From contig NZ_JAVJQO010000008.1 of assembly GCF_040218225.1 (NCBI RefSeq), positions 248,001 through 312,000 of the forward strand: a DNA stretch of 64,000 nucleotides, read 5' to 3'. Origin of the DNA: Gracilimonas sp. (GTDB taxonomy: Bacteria; Bacteroidota; Rhodothermia; Balneolales; Balneolaceae). Below the pieces are notes generated by a model. That model did no database searches. It was not told the origin of the DNA and saw only the letters and a program-made list of their open reading frames with translations. Below, in pieces: positions 2,485 through 11,612 of the stretch. Numbering within the stretch: position 1 is the first letter of the stretch; each line of letters opens with the position of its first letter. A program made the position numbers and the translations under genes.

Positions 2485-4110
2485 ATGATTAAAGACGTTC
2501 GAAGTTACATACATACAGTGGGCAATCGGCTTAGTAAAGCGTTCTCTATGGAGGCTTTTGGTACCGAAGACCAGCTTGAATTCTGGGAGCTGTCGGCCGA
2601 GCATTTATCCCGAAAAGAAAATCCTTCTTTCAGCGACCTCGTAAATTGGATGGATTTATTGTACAGGGCGCCTGTCCATTTTGTCTATAAGCTGCAAGAT
2701 GAAAAGCTCATACTTGATAGAAGACATGTGCTTACAAAAAATATATTACGTGATAATAAAGACGAAAACGAACCTCATAAACAAACTCCTCAGCAAAAAG
2801 AATTTATAAGAGATTTTGAGTACCAGCTACAGAATCTGGAAAAGAAAATGACTATGGATGAGGTGTTTAAGGAACACGGGATAACATCTCATTCTATTGG
2901 TCAATGTGAGCACATTCCGTTATTCAGTAAGGATGGAAAGCAATGGGGAATCTATTGTGCAGGTCCATATACCAAAAGCCCGGAGCAAATCACTCCAAAA
3001 CTCTCTATTGTAGGCCGTTTGTTAGCGAATTGGCTGATTAGCCTCGACGAAGAGGAGAGTAACCCACAGAAAGAGTATGAACAGAAAATTCAAAGTGTGG
3101 TCTCTGATTTAGGCAGTGGAAAGCTAAATTCGGAAGGCATCGCACAGATTATTCTCCGATATGTGGTACATGGCCGGAAAGTAGGGTCTGGTTGTATTGT
3201 TGAGTTTACTAAAAACGGGCATAAACTATTAGCTTCGCTCGGCATGAAGGAAAAAGTAGCAAACTATTTTACTGCAGCGGGCAGCGAAAAACTTTACGAA
3301 GACAATGATGGTAAAGTAAAGGCTACTGAACATGGCGAGCAATTTCTTCAGCATTGGGGTAAAAAAGTTGATGTAGAATATTTCAAGGGCGAACACCATT
3401 CTGGTTTTATTTTAGTCGAAAAACCTGAAGATGAATCTAGGCTCGATATCCCAGGCCTGCTTCATGAAATTGGATTTTCATTATCTAATTTGTTCGACTA
3501 TAGATTTAAAAATCATTTTTTCTCCAACAGGTTGATGGATAGTTACTACAAAATGTTGCGAGCCATCGAAGAAAGCCGGGAAAAAACGCGTCATCACACT
3601 CCTCGAATGATAGCATTTGTACAGCGATTTGGTATGCTGTTTGGTTTGGAAGACGAGGAAATGGAGATAATCACAAAAACTGCCAAACTCCATGATATTG
3701 GTTATGTAGGTGCTGTGAGTATTGAACCGGGTAAAACTATTGGAGGAGAGTTATCTCATCCTATTATCGGTGCAAACCTGATTGAACAACTTTCTATTGA
3801 GCGGGATGTTCTGGAGGGAATAAAAACTCATCATGAATGGGTTAATGGCAATGGTTCTCCGGGAGGATTAAAGTCAGAAAGTATTCCATGGACAGGTAAA
3901 ATTATAGGTCTCTTTGAGTACGTTGTAGATTTTATTGAAACGCATTCCAATGATGATTCCAAAACTGATGAACAATGGATTGAATTATTATCAAAAAGTT
4001 TAATGGAACGCGCTGATATAGAATTTGATATGGTATTAATTCCTACAGCAATACAGCTTCTGCAGGCTTTAGGCTGGGAAGAATGCGTGAGGCTAGGTGT
4101 TGAGGAATGA
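2485..4110 (+). CDS. GAF-like protein with degenerate C-terminal HD-GYP domain, candidate PelD replacement
   Basis: 541 residues with no signal peptide or membrane segment, so cytoplasmic. Residues about 50-190 and 200-335 look like two GAF-type sensor folds (weak call). The C terminus has the HD-GYP layout: His371 (HTPRM), His403-Asp404 (KLHDIG), His425-Pro426, His449-His450-Glu451 and then NGNGSPGGL. The signature is altered: the Lys after HDIG is Tyr407, GYP is GSP (Ser458), and the usual late metal-binding Asp appears as Glu478 in LFEYVVD. HD-GYP domains hydrolyse c-di-GMP; the altered residues suggest binding or altered activity rather than standard turnover (inference). The gene lies 9 nt after pelG and overlaps the GH114 gene by ATGA. 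In known pel operons PelD is a membrane-anchored GAF plus degenerate GGDEF c-di-GMP receptor. Confidence 0.75.
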   Translation: MIKDVRSYIHTVGNRLSKAFSMEAFGTEDQLEFWELSAEHLSRKENPSFSDLVNWMDLLYRAPVHFVYKLQDEKLILDRRHVLTKNILRDNKDENEPHKQTPQQKEFIRDFEYQLQNLEKKMTMDEVFKEHGITSHSIGQCEHIPLFSKDGKQWGIYCAGPYTKSPEQITPKLSIVGRLLANWLISLDEEESNPQKEYEQKIQSVVSDLGSGKLNSEGIAQIILRYVVHGRKVGSGCIVEFTKNGHKLLASLGMKEKVANYFTAAGSEKLYEDNDGKVKATEHGEQFLQHWGKKVDVEYFKGEHHSGFILVEKPEDESRLDIPGLLHEIGFSLSNLFDYRFKNHFFSNRLMDSYYKMLRAIEESREKTRHHTPRMIAFVQRFGMLFGLEDEEMEIITKTAKLHDIGYVGAVSIEPGKTIGGELSHPIIGANLIEQLSIERDVLEGIKTHHEWVNGNGSPGGLKSESIPWTGKIIGLFEYVVDFIETHSNDDSKTDEQWIELLSKSLMERADIEFDMVLIPTAIQLLQALGWEECVRLGVEE

Positions 4111-4970
4111 AACTGAAGCTTTTGGTAGCATCCATAATGGCAAGTACACTTGTACAATGTAAAAGCACTAATCAGGCTTCATTTTCTATAGCCAGTCAAA
4201 CTCCTTTTGCCGTTTGTTATGCTAAAGTTACTCCCGATCAGCTGCAAAATTATAGCATGGTAATTATTGAGCCTGATTTCTATAGCAAAGAAGAAATGGC
4301 AGCTTTACGTGCAACCGGTACAAAAATTATTGCTTATATCACTCTGGGAGAAGTAGATACAAATCGATGGTATTATCCCCGGCTTGCAGAAATCGGTTTT
4401 TTGGGTAAAAATGAAAACTGGAATAGTTTTTTTGTTGACCTTGAAAAAGATGAAACCCGTCAGATTATCCTGACCGAAGTATTACCAAGAATAGCAGAGA
4501 AAGAGGTTGATGGCTTTTTCCTTGATACCGTTGATGCTGTATCTCCTGTAACGGAGAGAGCTCACCTTCAGCCTTATATGGTTCAGCTTATTGAGGGAAT
4601 TAGAAAACGGTACCCGGCTAAGATCATCATTCAGAATGCTGGTGTTTTTTTACTGGAAGAAACAAAGGACGATATTGATGCCTTTCTAACTGAGGCTTTG
4701 GCTTCGGATTATGATTTCGAAAAGAAAGAGTACAAAATTCGAACGGCACAAGAATACAACGAAAGGCTGGAATACCTGAATCATTATTCTGAGAAAAGCG
4801 GAAAACCTTATTTCATAGTCGGTTTTGCGGATACTGATTTAAAGAGAAGCCAAATTAAAACCCGATTAGATACTTTAGCTCGTCCTTATTTTATAAGTAA
4901 TATTGGCTTAAGTGAGTTGCCCGTTCTGCCTGATTCTGTAGCTAATACTTTGAAAGCCGGGAGATTATGA
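4107..4970 (+). CDS. GH114 endo-alpha-1,4-polygalactosaminidase-like lipoprotein (PelA hydrolase domain alone)
   Basis: 287 residues. A short N-terminal hydrophobic stretch ends at LVQC (Cys18), a slightly off-consensus lipobox, so an envelope lipoprotein is likely. The body has the TIM-barrel pattern of GH114/TM1410: MVIIEPDFY, IIAYITLGEVD, GFFLDTVDAV (Asp140) and DAFLTEALAS (Glu197), acidic residues expected at strand ends. In Pseudomonas PelA this hydrolase is the N-terminal domain of a large protein that also carries the deacetylase and cleaves Pel. Here it is a separate gene, joined to its neighbours by ATGA overlaps on both sides. Likely role: trimming or release of the polymer in the periplasm. 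Confidence 0.82.
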   Translation: MKLKLLVASIMASTLVQCKSTNQASFSIASQTPFAVCYAKVTPDQLQNYSMVIIEPDFYSKEEMAALRATGTKIIAYITLGEVDTNRWYYPRLAEIGFLGKNENWNSFFVDLEKDETRQIILTEVLPRIAEKEVDGFFLDTVDAVSPVTERAHLQPYMVQLIEGIRKRYPAKIIIQNAGVFLLEETKDDIDAFLTEALASDYDFEKKEYKIRTAQEYNERLEYLNHYSEKSGKPYFIVGFADTDLKRSQIKTRLDTLARPYFISNIGLSELPVLPDSVANTLKAGRL

Positions 4971-7024
4971 ACTACGATTTTCAGGCTATTTTTTCGGTTA
5001 TCCGGTTAACCATCAGCTTTCTTTTTGTTTTTGGTTTTGTAACACCCTTATTTTTTGAACACGCAGGAAAGAAAAAAGGAATTGATCGTATTGTACTTTC
5101 CTGGGTAGGACTGGGTGGATTGATTATCATTGGTACCTTTGTCCTTGTCAACCTTCATATCTATGATTTCATCAGTATCATGTTTTGCCTGCTGATGCTG
5201 CCTTTCTTGGTTCATTTCTTTAAAAGGACGTGGGAAGGAAATACCATTGCAGATATTTTTAATACTGCAGAAAATCGTATAGTTGCTAATCATGTTTTAT
5301 TTATTGAAAAGATAAGGAAGCTAACATGGACTGGTATAAAAGACCGGATTCTTAAAAAGCCTTCCATCAAGCCAGAGAATCCTTACACCTTTGCCGCAAT
5401 AGCGATTGGGATATTAGCGTCGGTGTTAAGAATCATTCCTTCTATCCAAAATTCAGCTCCATTTAGCAGGGTCTGGTATTTTGAGTTAGATGCTGTAAAA
5501 AGGTTAAGCCTTCAGGAGTATTTTACGGGCTATCCGGTTCCTAAGGGAATGCACTCCATCATAAACTTTTTTAGTACAATTACCCAGGTTAGCCCGGAGA
5601 TGATTTTACACATCATTGGTGCGTTAATAAGTTTTTTCCTGGCTATTATCATCTTTTGGTTGATGAGAGACCTTACAAAGGGAAAACATCTTTCTGCAGC
5701 ATTGCTTTCTTCCTTAATTTATGCTGTTTTTCCAACGCTTTTTCTGCCCGTTTCTTTAGAGCTTGAATCAGAATTAACTTCTCTTTCTTTTTCACTATGC
5801 TTCGCGCTTCCAACAATGTTGTTCTATCTTCGAAATATAAGGTCAGGAGGGAAGAGCCCCTGGTTTTATATTTTTATGGGCATTGTGGCAACAGGTCTTT
5901 CGAATATTTTTGTGCTAATGATGGTGCTTTTGCCTTTTATGCTGCTAGGAATATTATCCATACCAGCTGGCAACTTCATAAAGAGATCCGGAAAGGTTCT
6001 ACTTTATCTTTCTTCAATCTATGCAGTAACGCTTGCACCATACATTTTGTATTGTCTGTCATCAGGACTAAGCATTAATACATTTTTTCAGGATCAGCTA
6101 TTTAATACGCAGGTTTTTAGTTTTACGACGAGTCTGATAATGCCAATTGAAGAGCTCAGCCTCATTTACTTGTATGCCGGACTTAGTTTGTTTGCAGCAT
6201 TTATTATCCGGCTATTTGTAAAGAAGAAGAAGCGCATCGGAGATGAGTTGGTTTTTCTTCTTCTCTTTATCTGTGCATCATACTTGTACACACCATTTTT
6301 TGATTACCAATATATCTATATCGATCCCGATCAATTGAATAGTTTTTATGGAATTCTGATCTGTATTTTCTTTGGCTTGTCTCTTCATTCCATATTTACT
6401 TTTCTGGAGTGGGTTATAAAGCCCATTAAAAAAATTACGCCTTACATAGTACCAATTCTTACCCTCGGAATTGTCGTTTTCTTATATGCTTATCAGGGGG
6501 GGCTTAGGGCAAGCAGAATGTTGCCTAAAACCGAACCAAATGGTTTTTTTAATGCTTATTATAATATCATAAATGAAAGAATTCCTTATACCTATGCCAC
6601 GGTAGGGCCCGAGCTTGATCGTGAGTTGGCTACTAATCGACATTATTTTATGAATTACCAGTTTTTTCTGGATAATTATGGCGCCATTGATTCTCTGTAT
6701 CAAGAATATTTAACCTTCCCTGATGATCAAAGACCAGAAGTTCAGGAAGTGCCGCCTGCTAGTATTTTTCTCTTTGTTGAAAAACCTCCTTATGGTTCTA
6801 TTCAGCAGGGAATATTGTACGATGCCCAAAGAATAATGAGAGATATAGAGCAGTGGTTGGTAACATTCAGACAGCTGAAAGGGAGAAAAATCAAGGTATA
6901 TCACGAAACAGAAGAAGCTATCGTTTATGAAATTATAAACAGGGACGATGAATCTACCATAAGAGGTGTTTTGAAGAATATTTATCCCAATGAGGAAGGA
7001 CGTGCAGCACGATTTTTCAAATAA
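4967..7024 (+). CDS. Large polytopic membrane protein of the Pel-like locus (GT-C-like, function unknown)
   Basis: 685 residues. About a dozen hydrophobic segments occupy residues 7-85 and 140-510, with a charged cytoplasmic-looking insert at about 86-138, and a soluble C-terminal domain of about 170 residues follows. An acidic loop (YFELDAVKRLSLQEYF, around Asp175) after an early membrane segment recalls GT-C glycosyltransferases, but no diagnostic motif is clear. It does not resemble PelE (two membrane segments plus TPRs). The start overlaps the GH114 stop (ATGA), and the end overlaps the next gene by about 35 nt, so it is translated as part of this operon. It may be the membrane partner of PelF/PelG, a lipid-linked sugar transferase or a modifying enzyme. 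I do not recognise the family. Confidence 0.7.
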   Translation: MNYDFQAIFSVIRLTISFLFVFGFVTPLFFEHAGKKKGIDRIVLSWVGLGGLIIIGTFVLVNLHIYDFISIMFCLLMLPFLVHFFKRTWEGNTIADIFNTAENRIVANHVLFIEKIRKLTWTGIKDRILKKPSIKPENPYTFAAIAIGILASVLRIIPSIQNSAPFSRVWYFELDAVKRLSLQEYFTGYPVPKGMHSIINFFSTITQVSPEMILHIIGALISFFLAIIIFWLMRDLTKGKHLSAALLSSLIYAVFPTLFLPVSLELESELTSLSFSLCFALPTMLFYLRNIRSGGKSPWFYIFMGIVATGLSNIFVLMMVLLPFMLLGILSIPAGNFIKRSGKVLLYLSSIYAVTLAPYILYCLSSGLSINTFFQDQLFNTQVFSFTTSLIMPIEELSLIYLYAGLSLFAAFIIRLFVKKKKRIGDELVFLLLFICASYLYTPFFDYQYIYIDPDQLNSFYGILICIFFGLSLHSIFTFLEWVIKPIKKITPYIVPILTLGIVVFLYAYQGGLRASRMLPKTEPNGFFNAYYNIINERIPYTYATVGPELDRELATNRHYFMNYQFFLDNYGAIDSLYQEYLTFPDDQRPEVQEVPPASIFLFVEKPPYGSIQQGILYDAQRIMRDIEQWLVTFRQLKGRKIKVYHETEEAIVYEIINRDDESTIRGVLKNIYPNEEGRAARFFK

Positions 7025-10000
7025 AAATCCGGATTATAAAGCCAATTGGTCAGTTGGATTTCTCAATGCAATAGCTGCGTTTGTTGTGATTTCTTTGGTA
7101 CTTCTTTCAGGGTGTCAGAAAGACGGCTCATACAGGAACATTTCACAATTTGATGCTTCTGCCCAATCACCTCTTGTAATGGTAATAAAGAACCAGGCAA
7201 ATGATTTCAGTGCAGAAGTTTCAGAACAGGTTTTAAAAGCTTTGGATTATACTAAAATTCCTTATTTCACAATTGATCTCGGAATACTGACACAGGAATT
7301 TGATATCCCTCAAACAGTAAGAAGTCTGATTGTAACTACCGACCGGATACAACAGCTCTCTGATGAGGAAATTGAGGGAATGATTGAGTTTGTTACTCGG
7401 GGTAATTCCATTTTGATTGTAGGTCCCATCAGTAATTCCAGATTTTCGTTTTTACAGGGCGTGAAGCAAAATGCTACTTTTGATATAGATTCAATTGATG
7501 TTGGCTTTCAGTTAAATGATGATGCTTTTCCGGGCATGAAGGGAAAAAGTTATATGTCGCCGGGCCTGCTTCCGCACTATGGCTTACTTGCGGGAGATTT
7601 TGACAGCGAAACAAAGTTTTTGGCAAGTACTGCCACCAATTCTGCTCAGCCATTTATTATTTCAAATAGAATAGGTTTGGGAGAAGTAGTAACTATTAAC
7701 AGCTTTGTTGTAGGGGGTAAAATTTATAGAGGAATTCTTTTCTCATCCATATTGAGGGGCTTGCAGGGTATTCCTTACCGGGTAGCTGATGTAAGTACAA
7801 TCTTTCTGGATGACTTCCCCGCACCACTGTATAACGAAAAGTTAGCCCCCATCGATGAAGAATACGATGTCACACACGCCGAATTTGTAAGTAAGATTTG
7901 GTGGCCAGATATGAAAGCATTAGCTGATTCATTTGGCATTAGCTATTCGGCTATGACAGCTTTTAATTATAATGCTAATGTAGTGCCACCCTTTGACTTT
8001 CAGGAATGGAGGCAGGGTTCCGTTGTTTACAATCAAAATATTGTACCCGGGAGCATTTATTTAGCGAATGATATCAGGGACACCCGGCATGAGCTCGCTT
8101 TTCACGGATACAATCACTTCTCGCTTTGGTTGGAAGACTGGGATAATATGAACTTCATGATCTCTTCGCTTCAGGCTGCCAGAAAACGATGGAGAGTTGA
8201 TAACCTTGGTGCTTTACCTACAAATTATGTACCTCCAACAAATGAAATTGACTCAGTTGGAATACAAGCCATTGTTAAAGGCATGCCGAGCATTAGATAC
8301 ATGAGCTCACTCTATTTTGGAGATAAGGAAGAAGGTAAGGGAAGGGAATTTGATCCTGAACCTTATGCACCAGCAGCCTTATACAATTACCCGCGTATTA
8401 GCAGTGGTTTTACGATGAATGAAAACTCACTGATGGATCAGCATGGCTTGCAATTACTGACCGGCATATGGAATCACTTTGTACACCCGGATGATGTTTT
8501 TCAGGTTAACCAGCGTATTGAAGATGAATTTAAAAGTCGTAACCCTTTGGGGCTAGGTTGGAAATCAGACCCGGAATATGGTTATGGTCTTTATCAACTT
8601 CTAAGCCAAAGAATAAAGTATACCAACTACCATTATCCGAACAATCGTTTTGTTACAGCAACAAATGGTGGAAGAAAGACAAAAGACTGGCGGCAGGGAC
8701 TTTCAAAATATTCTTTAAATGGACCTTCTATTAAGATTAATACAGGTTTCAGAAACAACTACAATCCAAGGTTTCCCAATGACCCCAAGCATTGGTACAT
8801 GTATGTAACGGAAGAACAATCAAGAGAAATTGATATTACGCTTAACCAGCAAGAACTAGATTACTCTCGCACGAAAATTTGGGATGGCTATCTTTATCAG
8901 TTTAGAACAACAACGGATGTATTCTTTGTGCCAAATTTTGATAAAAGGTTTTACTATGACAGGCAGTTTGTGAATAGTCTGGTCCGTGATCAAATCAATA
9001 ATTATCGTCAGTCTTCGCTGGCCGGTACCTCTTCGGAGATAGAGGGAAACTGGCGTGATACCCGTCTTGAAGATGCAGTAAAAGCCTGGCGACGGAATCC
9101 AAGCTTATCGAATCAGGAACAGTTGATCTCTTTGAGTGTGGAGTTTAATCAAATTCCGCGTGCCATAGAGATTCTGGAAAATAGATTGCTCAGAAATAAG
9201 ATTTGGGTGCAAGATGATATCAACCGCTTACTCACTTACTACGGATGGGAAGGGATGCAATCAAGGGCTGAGATGTTTCTTGAAAGACTATGGGAAGAAC
9301 ATCGTTCAGCAAAAGTTATAGCGTTGAAGAATCAGGCAGTTGCTGCTTTAGGTTTATTTGGTGAAGACTTTGAACGCAGATGGAGAACGCGTGAGTTGCA
9401 GCTTGCTCCCGATGATTATGAAACTTTACTAAGCTATACCAAATCGATTGAATCACAGGAGAACTGGCCTGAGATGAAAGAGAATCTAAAGAGATTGCTG
9501 GATATGCGTCCTCAGACTGATTCACTTTATGCTTTCACAGTCCAACGGTCCATTTACTATGAAAGTCCTGATAGCACTATGGAGTTAGTAGAAGAGTTTC
9601 CGGACTATTCATACGAACAACTTACACCATATGCATCAAACCTTGCCCTGATGTATGGTTTTGAAGCCAATGAATATGAGAAGGCATTATTCTGGGCCAA
9701 TAATTCACCCGATTTTGACGAACAATTAAAATTATTCTGGTTGGCACAGTTAAATTTAGATGCCCTTTATTTAGCTCAGGCGAAAGAATTAATTAATAAC
9801 AACCCGACTAATGACAGCCTGCGTTCTTTTGTGGGAACCAACTTGTTTTATGAAGGTTTTTATGAAGAATCATACAGTACCTTATACCCACTTTTCGAAC
9901 AAGAAAGGGCAGAAGGCTTATCAGCTGATACGCTTATTAGAAATGAAATTGGCTTTATGCCTTATAAAGGTAAAAAAGATTTTTACAAACGGTATCCAAA

Positions 10001-10937
10001 GTTCTTTGATTCTGACCAAAAACAGGCCTTAGAAGACGAATATCGCTGGACGGAAAGCGTGAAAGTTTCTCTTTTCGGAGAATACCGGGACGATAATTTC
10101 AACAATACCTTTGCACGCGGTGGACTATCAGTTCAATTAGGTAACCGAAGGAAAAATACTCACACATTAAAAACTGAGTACCTGTTATTCTCAGATGACG
10201 ATTCACAAACTGACCTGACCCTTAATTACCAAGGGGCTGGTTATTTATTCGCCCATCGTTCTGATAACCAACAATTTGAATTTCGTGCAGGTCCAACAGT
10301 ATTATTTGGTGAGAGCGAATTTATTCCAGAGGGGCTAATTGGGATGAGTTTCTCAAAAGATTCAGCATTTACTTCCTTAGAATTAACAGGAGGGGCAGAG
10401 TTAACATCCACATCTCTCCAGAATGATTATTACCAGGCACAGCTACAACTGTATAGACAAGACTATTGGCTAAAAAATAAGTTAGTGAGCTCTATATCAG
10501 CTAATACTAAGTATTATACCAATGATGTGCTCAGATATGGGGGGCAAGGCCGTCTTTTCCTTGATTTGATGAAAACCAAGTTTAGGGTACGTCCTTTGGG
10601 AGAGGTTAGTTATTCAGATGCTACTGAAAGCTTTTTGAGTGGAATACCTTACTACACACCTGATCAGTATTTTTCACAAGGCTTAGGATTGGACTTACAA
10701 TATCGCAACCCGGATAATTTTGATTACCGTACTCAACTTACCGGTGAAATAATGGGCAAACATGAACGAAGGGAAGGGTTTTTCCTTACCGGGAGAATTC
10801 AACTGGAGCATAAGTTCAGGAACTTCTGGCAGATTAGCTTAGGTAGTGAAATTTCTACCAGCCAGGTATATCGATCAAATCGAATTTTCTTTACTATTTC
10901 TCATTACTTTCCAAAGAAATTAAGAGCAAGAAACTAG
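6990..10937 (+). CDS. Lipoprotein fusing PelA-like deacetylase to PelB-like TPR and outer-membrane beta-barrel
   Basis: 1315 residues. The N terminus has a hydrophobic stretch ending in the lipobox LLSGC (Cys42). Residues about 60-265 look like a Rossmann/glutamine-amidotransferase-like domain. Residues about 268-430 resemble a polysaccharide deacetylase: IFLDDFP (Asp274, Asp275), AFHGYNHF (His372, His376, HxxxH) and NYVPPTN. Residues about 690-1010 are helical and TPR-like. Residues about 1020-1315 alternate amphipathic beta strands and end in an aromatic-rich strand (RIFFTISHYF), as in the PelB export barrel. In Proteobacteria PelA and PelB are separate and interact; here they appear covalently joined. 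The start is uncertain: ATG 6990 overlaps the previous gene, and a GTG five codons in is an alternative. Confidence 0.82.
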   Translation: MRKDVQHDFSNKNPDYKANWSVGFLNAIAAFVVISLVLLSGCQKDGSYRNISQFDASAQSPLVMVIKNQANDFSAEVSEQVLKALDYTKIPYFTIDLGILTQEFDIPQTVRSLIVTTDRIQQLSDEEIEGMIEFVTRGNSILIVGPISNSRFSFLQGVKQNATFDIDSIDVGFQLNDDAFPGMKGKSYMSPGLLPHYGLLAGDFDSETKFLASTATNSAQPFIISNRIGLGEVVTINSFVVGGKIYRGILFSSILRGLQGIPYRVADVSTIFLDDFPAPLYNEKLAPIDEEYDVTHAEFVSKIWWPDMKALADSFGISYSAMTAFNYNANVVPPFDFQEWRQGSVVYNQNIVPGSIYLANDIRDTRHELAFHGYNHFSLWLEDWDNMNFMISSLQAARKRWRVDNLGALPTNYVPPTNEIDSVGIQAIVKGMPSIRYMSSLYFGDKEEGKGREFDPEPYAPAALYNYPRISSGFTMNENSLMDQHGLQLLTGIWNHFVHPDDVFQVNQRIEDEFKSRNPLGLGWKSDPEYGYGLYQLLSQRIKYTNYHYPNNRFVTATNGGRKTKDWRQGLSKYSLNGPSIKINTGFRNNYNPRFPNDPKHWYMYVTEEQSREIDITLNQQELDYSRTKIWDGYLYQFRTTTDVFFVPNFDKRFYYDRQFVNSLVRDQINNYRQSSLAGTSSEIEGNWRDTRLEDAVKAWRRNPSLSNQEQLISLSVEFNQIPRAIEILENRLLRNKIWVQDDINRLLTYYGWEGMQSRAEMFLERLWEEHRSAKVIALKNQAVAALGLFGEDFERRWRTRELQLAPDDYETLLSYTKSIESQENWPEMKENLKRLLDMRPQTDSLYAFTVQRSIYYESPDSTMELVEEFPDYSYEQLTPYASNLALMYGFEANEYEKALFWANNSPDFDEQLKLFWLAQLNLDALYLAQAKELINNNPTNDSLRSFVGTNLFYEGFYEESYSTLYPLFEQERAEGLSADTLIRNEIGFMPYKGKKDFYKRYPKFFDSDQKQALEDEYRWTESVKVSLFGEYRDDNFNNTFARGGLSVQLGNRRKNTHTLKTEYLLFSDDDSQTDLTLNYQGAGYLFAHRSDNQQFEFRAGPTVLFGESEFIPEGLIGMSFSKDSAFTSLELTGGAELTSTSLQNDYYQAQLQLYRQDYWLKNKLVSSISANTKYYTNDVLRYGGQGRLFLDLMKTKFRVRPLGEVSYSDATESFLSGIPYYTPDQYFSQGLGLDLQYRNPDNFDYRTQLTGEIMGKHERREGFFLTGRIQLEHKFRNFWQISLGSEISTSQVYRSNRIFFTISHYFPKKLRARN

Positions 10938-10969: not shown

Positions 10970-11278
10970 ATGCGTTTTATAAGAAAACATTTAGAGTGGT
11001 TTATTTTCAGCGCAGGACTCATGCTTCTGGCATTTATGAATCCTGAAAATGCGGGTACATCGCTTTGCTTTTTTGAGTGGGCAGGTATAGATTTTTGTCC
11101 GGGAGAGGGATTAGGACATTCGATATCATATACATTTCGGGGAGATTTAACATCGGCTTTTCAGGCTCATTTGGCCGGGCCGGCAGCCGTTTTTATTCTT
11201 GCAGGGCGCATCATCTATCTTCTCAAGAATCTTTATAAAGAATCAAAACTAACTACAAATAAGGAACAGCATGGCTAA
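10970..11278 (+). CDS. DUF2752 family small membrane protein
   Basis: 102 residues with two hydrophobic segments (about 9-24 and 66-86) around a loop reading FCPGEGLGHSISYTFRGD. That is the DUF2752 signature, usually CPGCGLTR or CPGCGLGHS followed by a G-D/N and an NP/AHP-like motif. The second Cys of the usual CPGC is Glu here. No function is established for the family. It lies 32 nt after the Pel-like fusion gene and overlaps the TM2 gene by 8 nt, so it may be the tail of that operon or a separate housekeeping pair; DUF2752 and TM2 genes are commonly adjacent in Bacteroidota. Confidence 0.75.
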   Translation: MRFIRKHLEWFIFSAGLMLLAFMNPENAGTSLCFFEWAGIDFCPGEGLGHSISYTFRGDLTSAFQAHLAGPAAVFILAGRIIYLLKNLYKESKLTTNKEQHG

Positions 11279-11612
11279 TGTAATTGATCATTTACCAGAA
11301 CTAGAAGGCGACGAGTCATTATATGTCGGGAAATTACTTTCTGAATTTTCTGATGAACAGGCTTCTAAATTTGCTTCAGTATATCGATCACGACGGAAAG
11401 ATCCCCAAACGATATTGATTACCTGTATTCTCGGGTTTTTCTTAATTGCGGGTGTACATCGCCTGATGTTAAATCAGATTGGAATGGGTATACTCTATAT
11501 TTTCACCGGTGGCCTTTGCCTGATCGGCACCATTGTTGACTTGGTGAATTATAAGGACATGGCATTTCAATATAACCGTGGCGTAGCGAAAGAAATACAA
11601 TCGTACATATAG
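11271..11612 (+). CDS. TM2 domain membrane protein
   Basis: 113 residues. The N-terminal half is soluble (ELEGDESLYVGKLLSEFSDEQ), followed by two membrane helices with a TM2-like pattern: ILGFFLIAGVHRLML, then GMGILYIFTGGLCLIGTIVDL ending in the Asp typical of the domain. TM2 proteins are small inner-membrane proteins of unknown role. The start overlaps the DUF2752 gene by 8 nt, indicating co-translation. It ends 7 nt before the convergent DUF5777 gene. Confidence 0.78.
   Translation: MANVIDHLPELEGDESLYVGKLLSEFSDEQASKFASVYRSRRKDPQTILITCILGFFLIAGVHRLMLNQIGMGILYIFTGGLCLIGTIVDLVNYKDMAFQYNRGVAKEIQSYI

Follow-up and report, generated by a model that had tools for sequence, protein, structure and literature searches.

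We found that a gene at positions 6990-10937 (+ strand) of a 64,000-nucleotide stretch of Gracilimonas sp. DNA (contig NZ_JAVJQO010000008.1, positions 248,001 to 312,000; hereafter the window, whose numbering we use) probably encodes the deacetylase and the exporter of a Pel-type exopolysaccharide machine, with both functions on one polypeptide. A reading of the DNA without database searches (the sequence-only reading) had proposed a PelA-like deacetylase fused to a PelB-like exporter. This proposal is supported by homology of the N-terminal half to the deacetylase PelADA of Bacillus cereus, including the active site, by a confident model of the C-terminal half and its fold matches, and by a neighbourhood containing genes for PelF, PelG and PelA hydrolase homologues. 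The nature of the polymer, the enzymatic activity and the export route are those suggested by homology and predicted structure.

The open reading frame is uninterrupted and encodes 1315 residues, and a whole-genome search found a single copy in the 3.54-Mb genome. A GTG at codon 5 (position 7002) may be the true start, giving a protein of 1311 residues; in about ten of 26 listed family frames the equivalent codon is GTG and no ATG precedes it. The protein begins with a signal peptide and the lipobox LLSGC, ending at Cys42 (6990-7115). An alpha/beta domain matching the CBM114 region of PelADA follows (residues ~60-262; 7167-7775; 9ZAU alignment, with domain limits from PMC13254593), and then a carbohydrate esterase (CE26-like) domain (residues ~263-545; 7776-8624; 9ZAU and family alignments) and a small beta-rich part (residues ~546-657; 8625-8960). 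The remainder consists of 21 helices resembling tetratricopeptide repeats (TPRs; residues 658-1022; 8961-10055) and a 16-strand barrel (residues 1025-1306; 10062-10907), both assigned from the model, with TPR profile matches in family members ranging from weak to strong. That is, the 1315-residue product is real, with single frames in its relatives as well, and the order first proposed (lipobox, Rossmann-like domain, HxxxH deacetylase domain, TPR-like helices, C-terminal barrel) agrees with the sequence, the 9ZAU alignment and the model. The deacetylase had been placed at residues 60-430; it is present, but the module extends to about residue 545, and the small beta-rich part follows.

The N-terminal half is related to a characterized deacetylase. 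The Pfam family DUF2194 spans residues 47-585 (E = 1.7e-63), and the sole strong relative of solved structure is PelADA of B. cereus (9ZAU), which aligns with residues 63-505 (E = 8e-32; E = 2.3e-65 with the profile). In PelADA, D262 is the base and H488 the acid, D263, H350 and H354 are the metal ligands, R458 activates the base, and D491 is placed to activate the acid; the families CE26 and CBM114 were founded on this enzyme (PMC13254593). In the 9ZAU alignment (chain number plus 25), residues D274, D275, H372, H376, R469, H499 and D502 of the fusion protein correspond to D262, D263, H350, H354, R458, H488 and D491, respectively; H372 and H376 form the HxxxH motif. All seven were invariant in 78 of 78 aligned rows (the fusion protein and 77 of the named loci described below). 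The C-terminal beta-sandwich domain of PelADA may have a counterpart in the strands that the model shows at residues 570-648. In place of the single-pass N-terminal membrane helix of the B. cereus protein, the fusion protein has its lipobox. Pseudomonas-type PelA, whose deacetylase belongs to family CE21 (PMC12022489), is in the same PDB sequence file (9cgy) and did not match the fusion protein or its profile up to E = 10. By homology, these results support a PelADA-like (CE26) deacetylase in the N-terminal half. The description "PelA-like" was thus right about the deacetylase, but the closest solved enzyme is PelADA of the Gram-positive type and the hydrolase half of PelA is in a separate gene (4107-4970).

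The C-terminal half is predicted to be an exporter. We modelled residues 560-1315 with 68 sequences. The model (mean predicted local distance difference test score, pLDDT, 90.3) shows 21 helices within residues 658-1022; these lead into 16 strands, the seventh and eighth of which are separated by a short helix (residues 1140-1144). PelB has a 16-strand barrel and a helix, Plug-I, between strands 7 and 8 (PMC12141448). The best match in a search with VIA-align was PgaA (4y25; Z = 23.8 over 272 residues, 3.4 Å), followed by three BcsC entries (6tzk, Z = 23.2; 9b8a, 22.9; 9b8h, 22.6) and PelB (9h80; Z = 21.5 over 319 residues, 5.8 Å). The first other family, CymA (Z = 15.6), was about 6 Z units below this group, in lists where the absence of a family does not exclude it. 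PgaA, the three BcsC entries and PelB were likewise the top five in Foldseek. The structure model called for by the sequence-only reading thus came out as expected, and it supports assignment of the C-terminal half as an exporter of the PelB/BcsC/PgaA type, with repeats followed by a 16-strand barrel. Going by the model, its kinship to PelB is one of fold; none in sequence showed in the profile search described below. TPR models matched a few family members (E = 0.016 or worse); a distant relative, locus L051, matched TPR_19 (E = 2.3e-23) and gave a hint of PgaA_barrel (E = 0.0064).

We surveyed other genomes for the same domain order, which was found to recur. In a sample of the phylum (394 genomes, 170 genera), the fusion was present in 26 genomes from 11 genera, including the genome of the window, always as a single frame of 1268-1349 residues. 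The distribution is patchy: 368 genomes of the sample had no fusion, and within the genus of the window five of the seven listed genomes carried it and two did not. DUF2194 scored above the cut-off in 27 of the 394 genomes, the 26 carriers and one with a short N-terminal match. (Matches to PF09960 occurred in 45 genomes; 19 were not counted, 18 below the cut-off and one, G196, just above it and covering only profile positions 59-153. In G092 and G011, one stop lies inside the match, at the frame end in both.) A scan of named genomes gave 313 encoding stretches. Our results cover the best-scoring 80 of the 313, a range in which split versions among more distant loci would not show. A frame of more than 1200 residues was present in 77 of the 80; in L138 and L140 the frame is cut short by the contig end, in L149 it is broken at 828 residues, and these three were left out of the 78-row alignment. 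The named loci are mostly from Balneolota and Flavobacteriia and include Balneola, Gracilimonas, Fodinibius, Flavobacterium, Maribacter, Salegentibacter, Mesonia, Gillisia, Aquimarina and Roseivirga. Record titles were taken as given, including those of two metagenome-assembled genomes (MAGs), L160 (titled Limnohabitans) and L129 (titled Sphingobacterium thalpophilum). Pairwise distances in the enzyme correlated with those in the helices and in the barrel (r = 0.92; the highest of 500 shuffles gave 0.13 and 0.10), and because of this the enzyme and exporter halves appear, from their sequences, to be inherited together.

The genes upstream (5') of the fusion overlap or nearly touch one another and resemble a Pel cluster. 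At the edge of the window is the C-terminal part of a gene for a PelF-like family 4 glycosyltransferase (GT4; 1-848, +; the whole gene encodes 527 residues in locus L002) that matches the NCBIfam PelF equivalog NF038011 (120.3 bits; cut-off 100). It is followed by a gene for a PelG-like membrane protein (820-2475, +). The PelG family PF16933 was matched by 9 of 15 members of this family at E up to 1 (best E = 1.2e-9); a search of the PDB with the PelG profile found nothing. A GH114/PelA-hydrolase-like protein (4107-4970, +; PF03537) has, by eye, an N-terminal signal ending in Cys. Since PelA is the solved structure that it matches best (9cgy, E = 9.7e-10, with 5tcb at E = 3.5e-6), the two activities of PelA would be split here, with the hydrolase in a separate gene and the deacetylase on the exporter. 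Separate PelAH and PelADA proteins occur in Gram-positive Pel loci (PMC7112168). Genes for PelF, PelG, the GH114 protein and a conserved 685-residue membrane protein (4967-7024, +) were upstream of the fusion on the same strand in every one of the 70 named loci whose upstream sequence extends for 6.5 kb or more. In a second set of 20 regions from the 26 genomes, which overlaps the first, 19 had all four genes with the membrane protein adjoining the fusion. The exception was L051, in which the GH114 gene was unmatched and other genes lie between the membrane protein and the fusion.

Several findings count against a Pel-type exporter and have to be weighed. The PelG copy of the window, searched alone against Pfam, did not match PF16933, and PelD (PF16963) had no match in the genome in a search that lacked a positive control. 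The predicted template modelling score (pTM) of the exporter half was only 0.59, possibly because the helices are loosely placed relative to the barrel. Sequence comparison did not connect the exporter half to PelB. The best matches of its profile to PDB sequences were designed TPR proteins (E = 0.001), a BcsC fragment had E = 0.41, and there was no PelB row up to E = 10, the presence of a PelB chain in that file being unchecked. PF21197 (PgaA_barrel) had no match in the genome of the window, with an E. coli positive control that did match. The net charge of the whole barrel is 0, and the barrel interior of PelB is reported to be negative (PMC12141448). Finally, the 685-residue membrane protein, which is predicted to have the fold of a GT-C glycosyltransferase (see below), is missing from the Pel components listed in the passages of the Pel papers that we cite.

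Some of these findings would fit the same architecture acting on another N-acetylated polysaccharide, not Pel (alpha-1,4-linked N-acetylgalactosamine). The GT-C-fold protein that adjoins the fusion in all 70 testable named loci suggests extra chemistry, as does an extra GT4 gene found in 17 of the 18 that could be tested among the 19 best named loci, and PelD was not matched in the search that lacked a positive control. However, the GT4 gene was missing from all 52 testable loci of the rest, and a PelF equivalog, a PelG family member, a PelA-type hydrolase and a PelADA-type deacetylase together resemble the Pel set. We consider a different polymer possible, though unlikely, and prefer a Pel-type one.

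It is also conceivable that the fusion protein is a precursor that is cut in a flexible linker after secretion, leaving the halves to act together non-covalently, as PelA and PelB do. In residues 676-688 the pLDDT falls below 50 and the family alignment is rich in gaps, and the chain may be cut near there after export. But the halves share one frame in 77 of 80 named loci and we identified no protease site, which makes this rather improbable. Still less probable is that the barrel is a mere outer-membrane anchor for the deacetylase, with the polymer leaving through another channel. In its favour, conservation is lower in the helices and the barrel than in the enzyme (mean family identity 0.28 and 0.29 versus 0.46). 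However, all five leading fold matches export polysaccharides and share the repeats-plus-barrel plan, and the next porin lies about 6 Z units lower; no other exporter was recognized among the cluster genes read. An assembly artefact or frameshift joining two genes is ruled out, its chance negligible, by the single frames in 26 of 394 genomes and 77 of 80 named loci; nothing counted in its favour.

We propose the following for the fusion protein as a Pel-type deacetylase-exporter. PelF would make an N-acetylhexosamine polymer in the cytoplasm, and PelG would pass it across the inner membrane. In the periplasm, the carbohydrate-binding-module-like alpha/beta domain and the CE26-like domain would bind the chain and strip acetyl groups, using a putative zinc-type site composed of residues present in the protein (ligands D275, H372 and H376, base D274 and acid H499). 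The separate GH114-type enzyme would fill the role of the PelA hydrolase domain. The resulting cationic chain could then follow the TPR-like helices, which are acidic (net charge -19 in this protein; median -13 in the family, with values from -34 to 13), into the predicted 16-strand barrel and out of the cell. About ten helix pairs would separate the enzyme from the barrel, as if the enzyme took the place of the distal repeats of PelB. In this way the fusion would couple deacetylation to export.

The N-terminal lipid probably does no more than help to keep the enzyme end in place, and may be replaceable. Using a regular expression, we found a lipobox in 87 of 99 open frames (from overlapping sets). 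By eye, the 12 misses comprise three lipoprotein-like frames, seven Balneola-type frames with a signal-peptidase-I site (A-x-A-Q/N-A-Q-like) instead of a lipobox, Aureibaculum L102 with a plain hydrophobic N-terminal helix, and L051 with neither. A lipid anchor is thus common but not universal across the family, and by analogy with relatives that lack it the anchor looks helpful but replaceable. PgaB, the deacetylase of poly-N-acetylglucosamine (PNAG), is an outer-membrane lipoprotein and binds the PgaA exporter even without its lipid (PMC9384988). The anchor on a barrel protein had been called unusual; the lipobox is there, but the anchor is less odd than claimed, because PgaB is a lipoprotein too and some homologues of the fusion have no anchor.

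The conserved 685-residue membrane protein adjoins the fusion on its 5' side in the 70 testable named loci and in 19 of the 20 further regions. It had no Pfam or NCBIfam match, and in its family only single members hit scattered models; its profile gave one chance-like row against the PDB (E = 0.01). Its model (pLDDT 83.9, pTM 0.85) matched yeast STT3 (8age, Z = 21.5), PglB (3rce, 17.1) and ArnT (5f15, 15.9), with the first unrelated row at 5.7. GT-C enzymes usually carry a conserved acidic residue in the first external loop. No position between 139 and 215 was acidic in at least 85% of the 58 rows of this family; position 162, an aspartate in most rows, is N in the window copy. Residues E114, D453, D455, D575 and E655 are conserved in these rows, and the protein may be an enzyme or a scaffold. 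With somewhat less than even confidence, we suggest that Bacteroidota and Balneolota own a distinct and widespread Pel machine in which deacetylation and export are obligatorily coupled on one chain and the GT-C-fold protein is involved at the inner membrane, for example in handing over, capping or decorating the polymer.

The cluster of the window also contains a gene for an HD-domain, HD-GYP-like protein (2485-4110, +; Pfam, NCBIfam and PDB matches). Its best solved match is a metal-dependent phosphohydrolase (4mcw, E = 1.7e-6), followed by a cyclic-di-GMP phosphodiesterase (E = 0.0026). Compared with the HD-GYP consensus, HD is kept and GYP reads GSP. The gene was present in 16 of 70 testable named loci, 16 of the 18 among the 19 best and none of the 52 others, and also in L051. 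The 19 best are from Balneolota and from two MAGs titled Bacteroidetes bacterium (L097 and L099). It is possible that this protein senses or degrades cyclic-di-GMP in place of PelD. On the same strand, the DNA upstream of the window encodes, judging by eye, a response regulator/kinase, another response regulator and a GT4 enzyme. Genes for DUF2752 and TM2 proteins lie downstream (3') of the fusion (10970-11612, +), and likewise in 13 of 17 Balneolota-titled loci among the 19 best. In L051 (5962-9895), the genes between the membrane protein and the fusion encode, by eye, a PP2C-type phosphatase, an HD protein and a STAS-like protein. Fodinibius sediminis has a second copy of the fusion (L098, 9947-14752), a 1602-residue frame with about 300 extra C-terminal residues that weakly match SPOR (E = 0.07), in a rearranged cluster.

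How the interaction between PelA and PelB coordinates modification and export has been called unclear (PMC12022489). With the two joined covalently in nature, their ratio would be fixed at 1:1 and the enzyme would be kept where the helical rail begins, so that a single protein would suffice to test the coupling. Our results also suggest what a DUF2194 gene, together with its cluster, does in many Flavobacteriia and Balneolota. In the mostly open-access literature on DUF2194, Pel and Bcs fusions, we found no published account of a deacetylase-exporter fusion; nor did that literature yield a described Pel system in Flavobacteriia or Balneolota, or biofilm work on Balneolaceae. The idea of an enzyme-pore fusion is already in print for BcsZC of Zymomonas, in which a periplasmic polysaccharide enzyme is joined to the outer-membrane pore of the same pathway (PMC7112194). 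BcsZC is an example found on inspection and joins a hydrolase to a cellulose pore, whereas the fusion described here has a deacetylase and belongs to a broad family. Judged against that literature, the deacetylase-exporter version appears to be new.

Bacteria with an outer membrane do not always carry DUF2194 as a fusion: it stands alone in two Fusobacteriota records. In Cetobacterium somerae (L163) and Fusobacterium vincentii (L164), DUF2194, PelF, PelG and a GH114-type gene lie in or beside one cluster, as around the fusion, but DUF2194 is a separate protein (609 residues in L163, a 621-residue frame in L164). In L163, a GAF-domain gene comes first, then PelF and PelG; these are followed by a separate 305-residue protein that is barrel-like by eye and has no Pfam match. 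The Cetobacterium PelG (L163, 12939-15050) has a long C-terminal tail with, by eye, a lipoprotein-like start (LSGC) and repeats rich in glycine, tyrosine and asparagine.

PelADA of B. cereus (9ZAU) is homologous to the fusion protein over residues 63-505 with the full active site, and PelADA genes also lie with those for PelF and PelG (PMC13254593). At its N terminus PelADA carries a membrane helix, where most members of the fusion family have a lipobox, and it stops after its beta-rich domain, lacking the C-terminal exporter of the fusion. PgaB-PgaA resembles the fusion in combining a lipidated deacetylase with a TPR-barrel exporter (PMC9384988), and PgaA (4y25) gave the best Z score. PgaB and PgaA are two proteins, whereas the fusion is one chain. 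PgaB belongs to esterase family CE4, and the PNAG system has other synthase genes. PelB of Pseudomonas aeruginosa (9h80) is like the fusion in its helical repeats, its 16-strand barrel, the helix between strands 7 and 8 and its Pel-type neighbours (PMC12141448, PMC12022489). However, PelB, which has 19 TPRs, is a protein of its own: it binds PelA and is seated in a ring of PelC lipoproteins. The PelA deacetylase has been modelled on TPRs 9-15 of the 19 (PMC12022489); the fusion has 21 predicted helices and carries its enzyme on the same chain.

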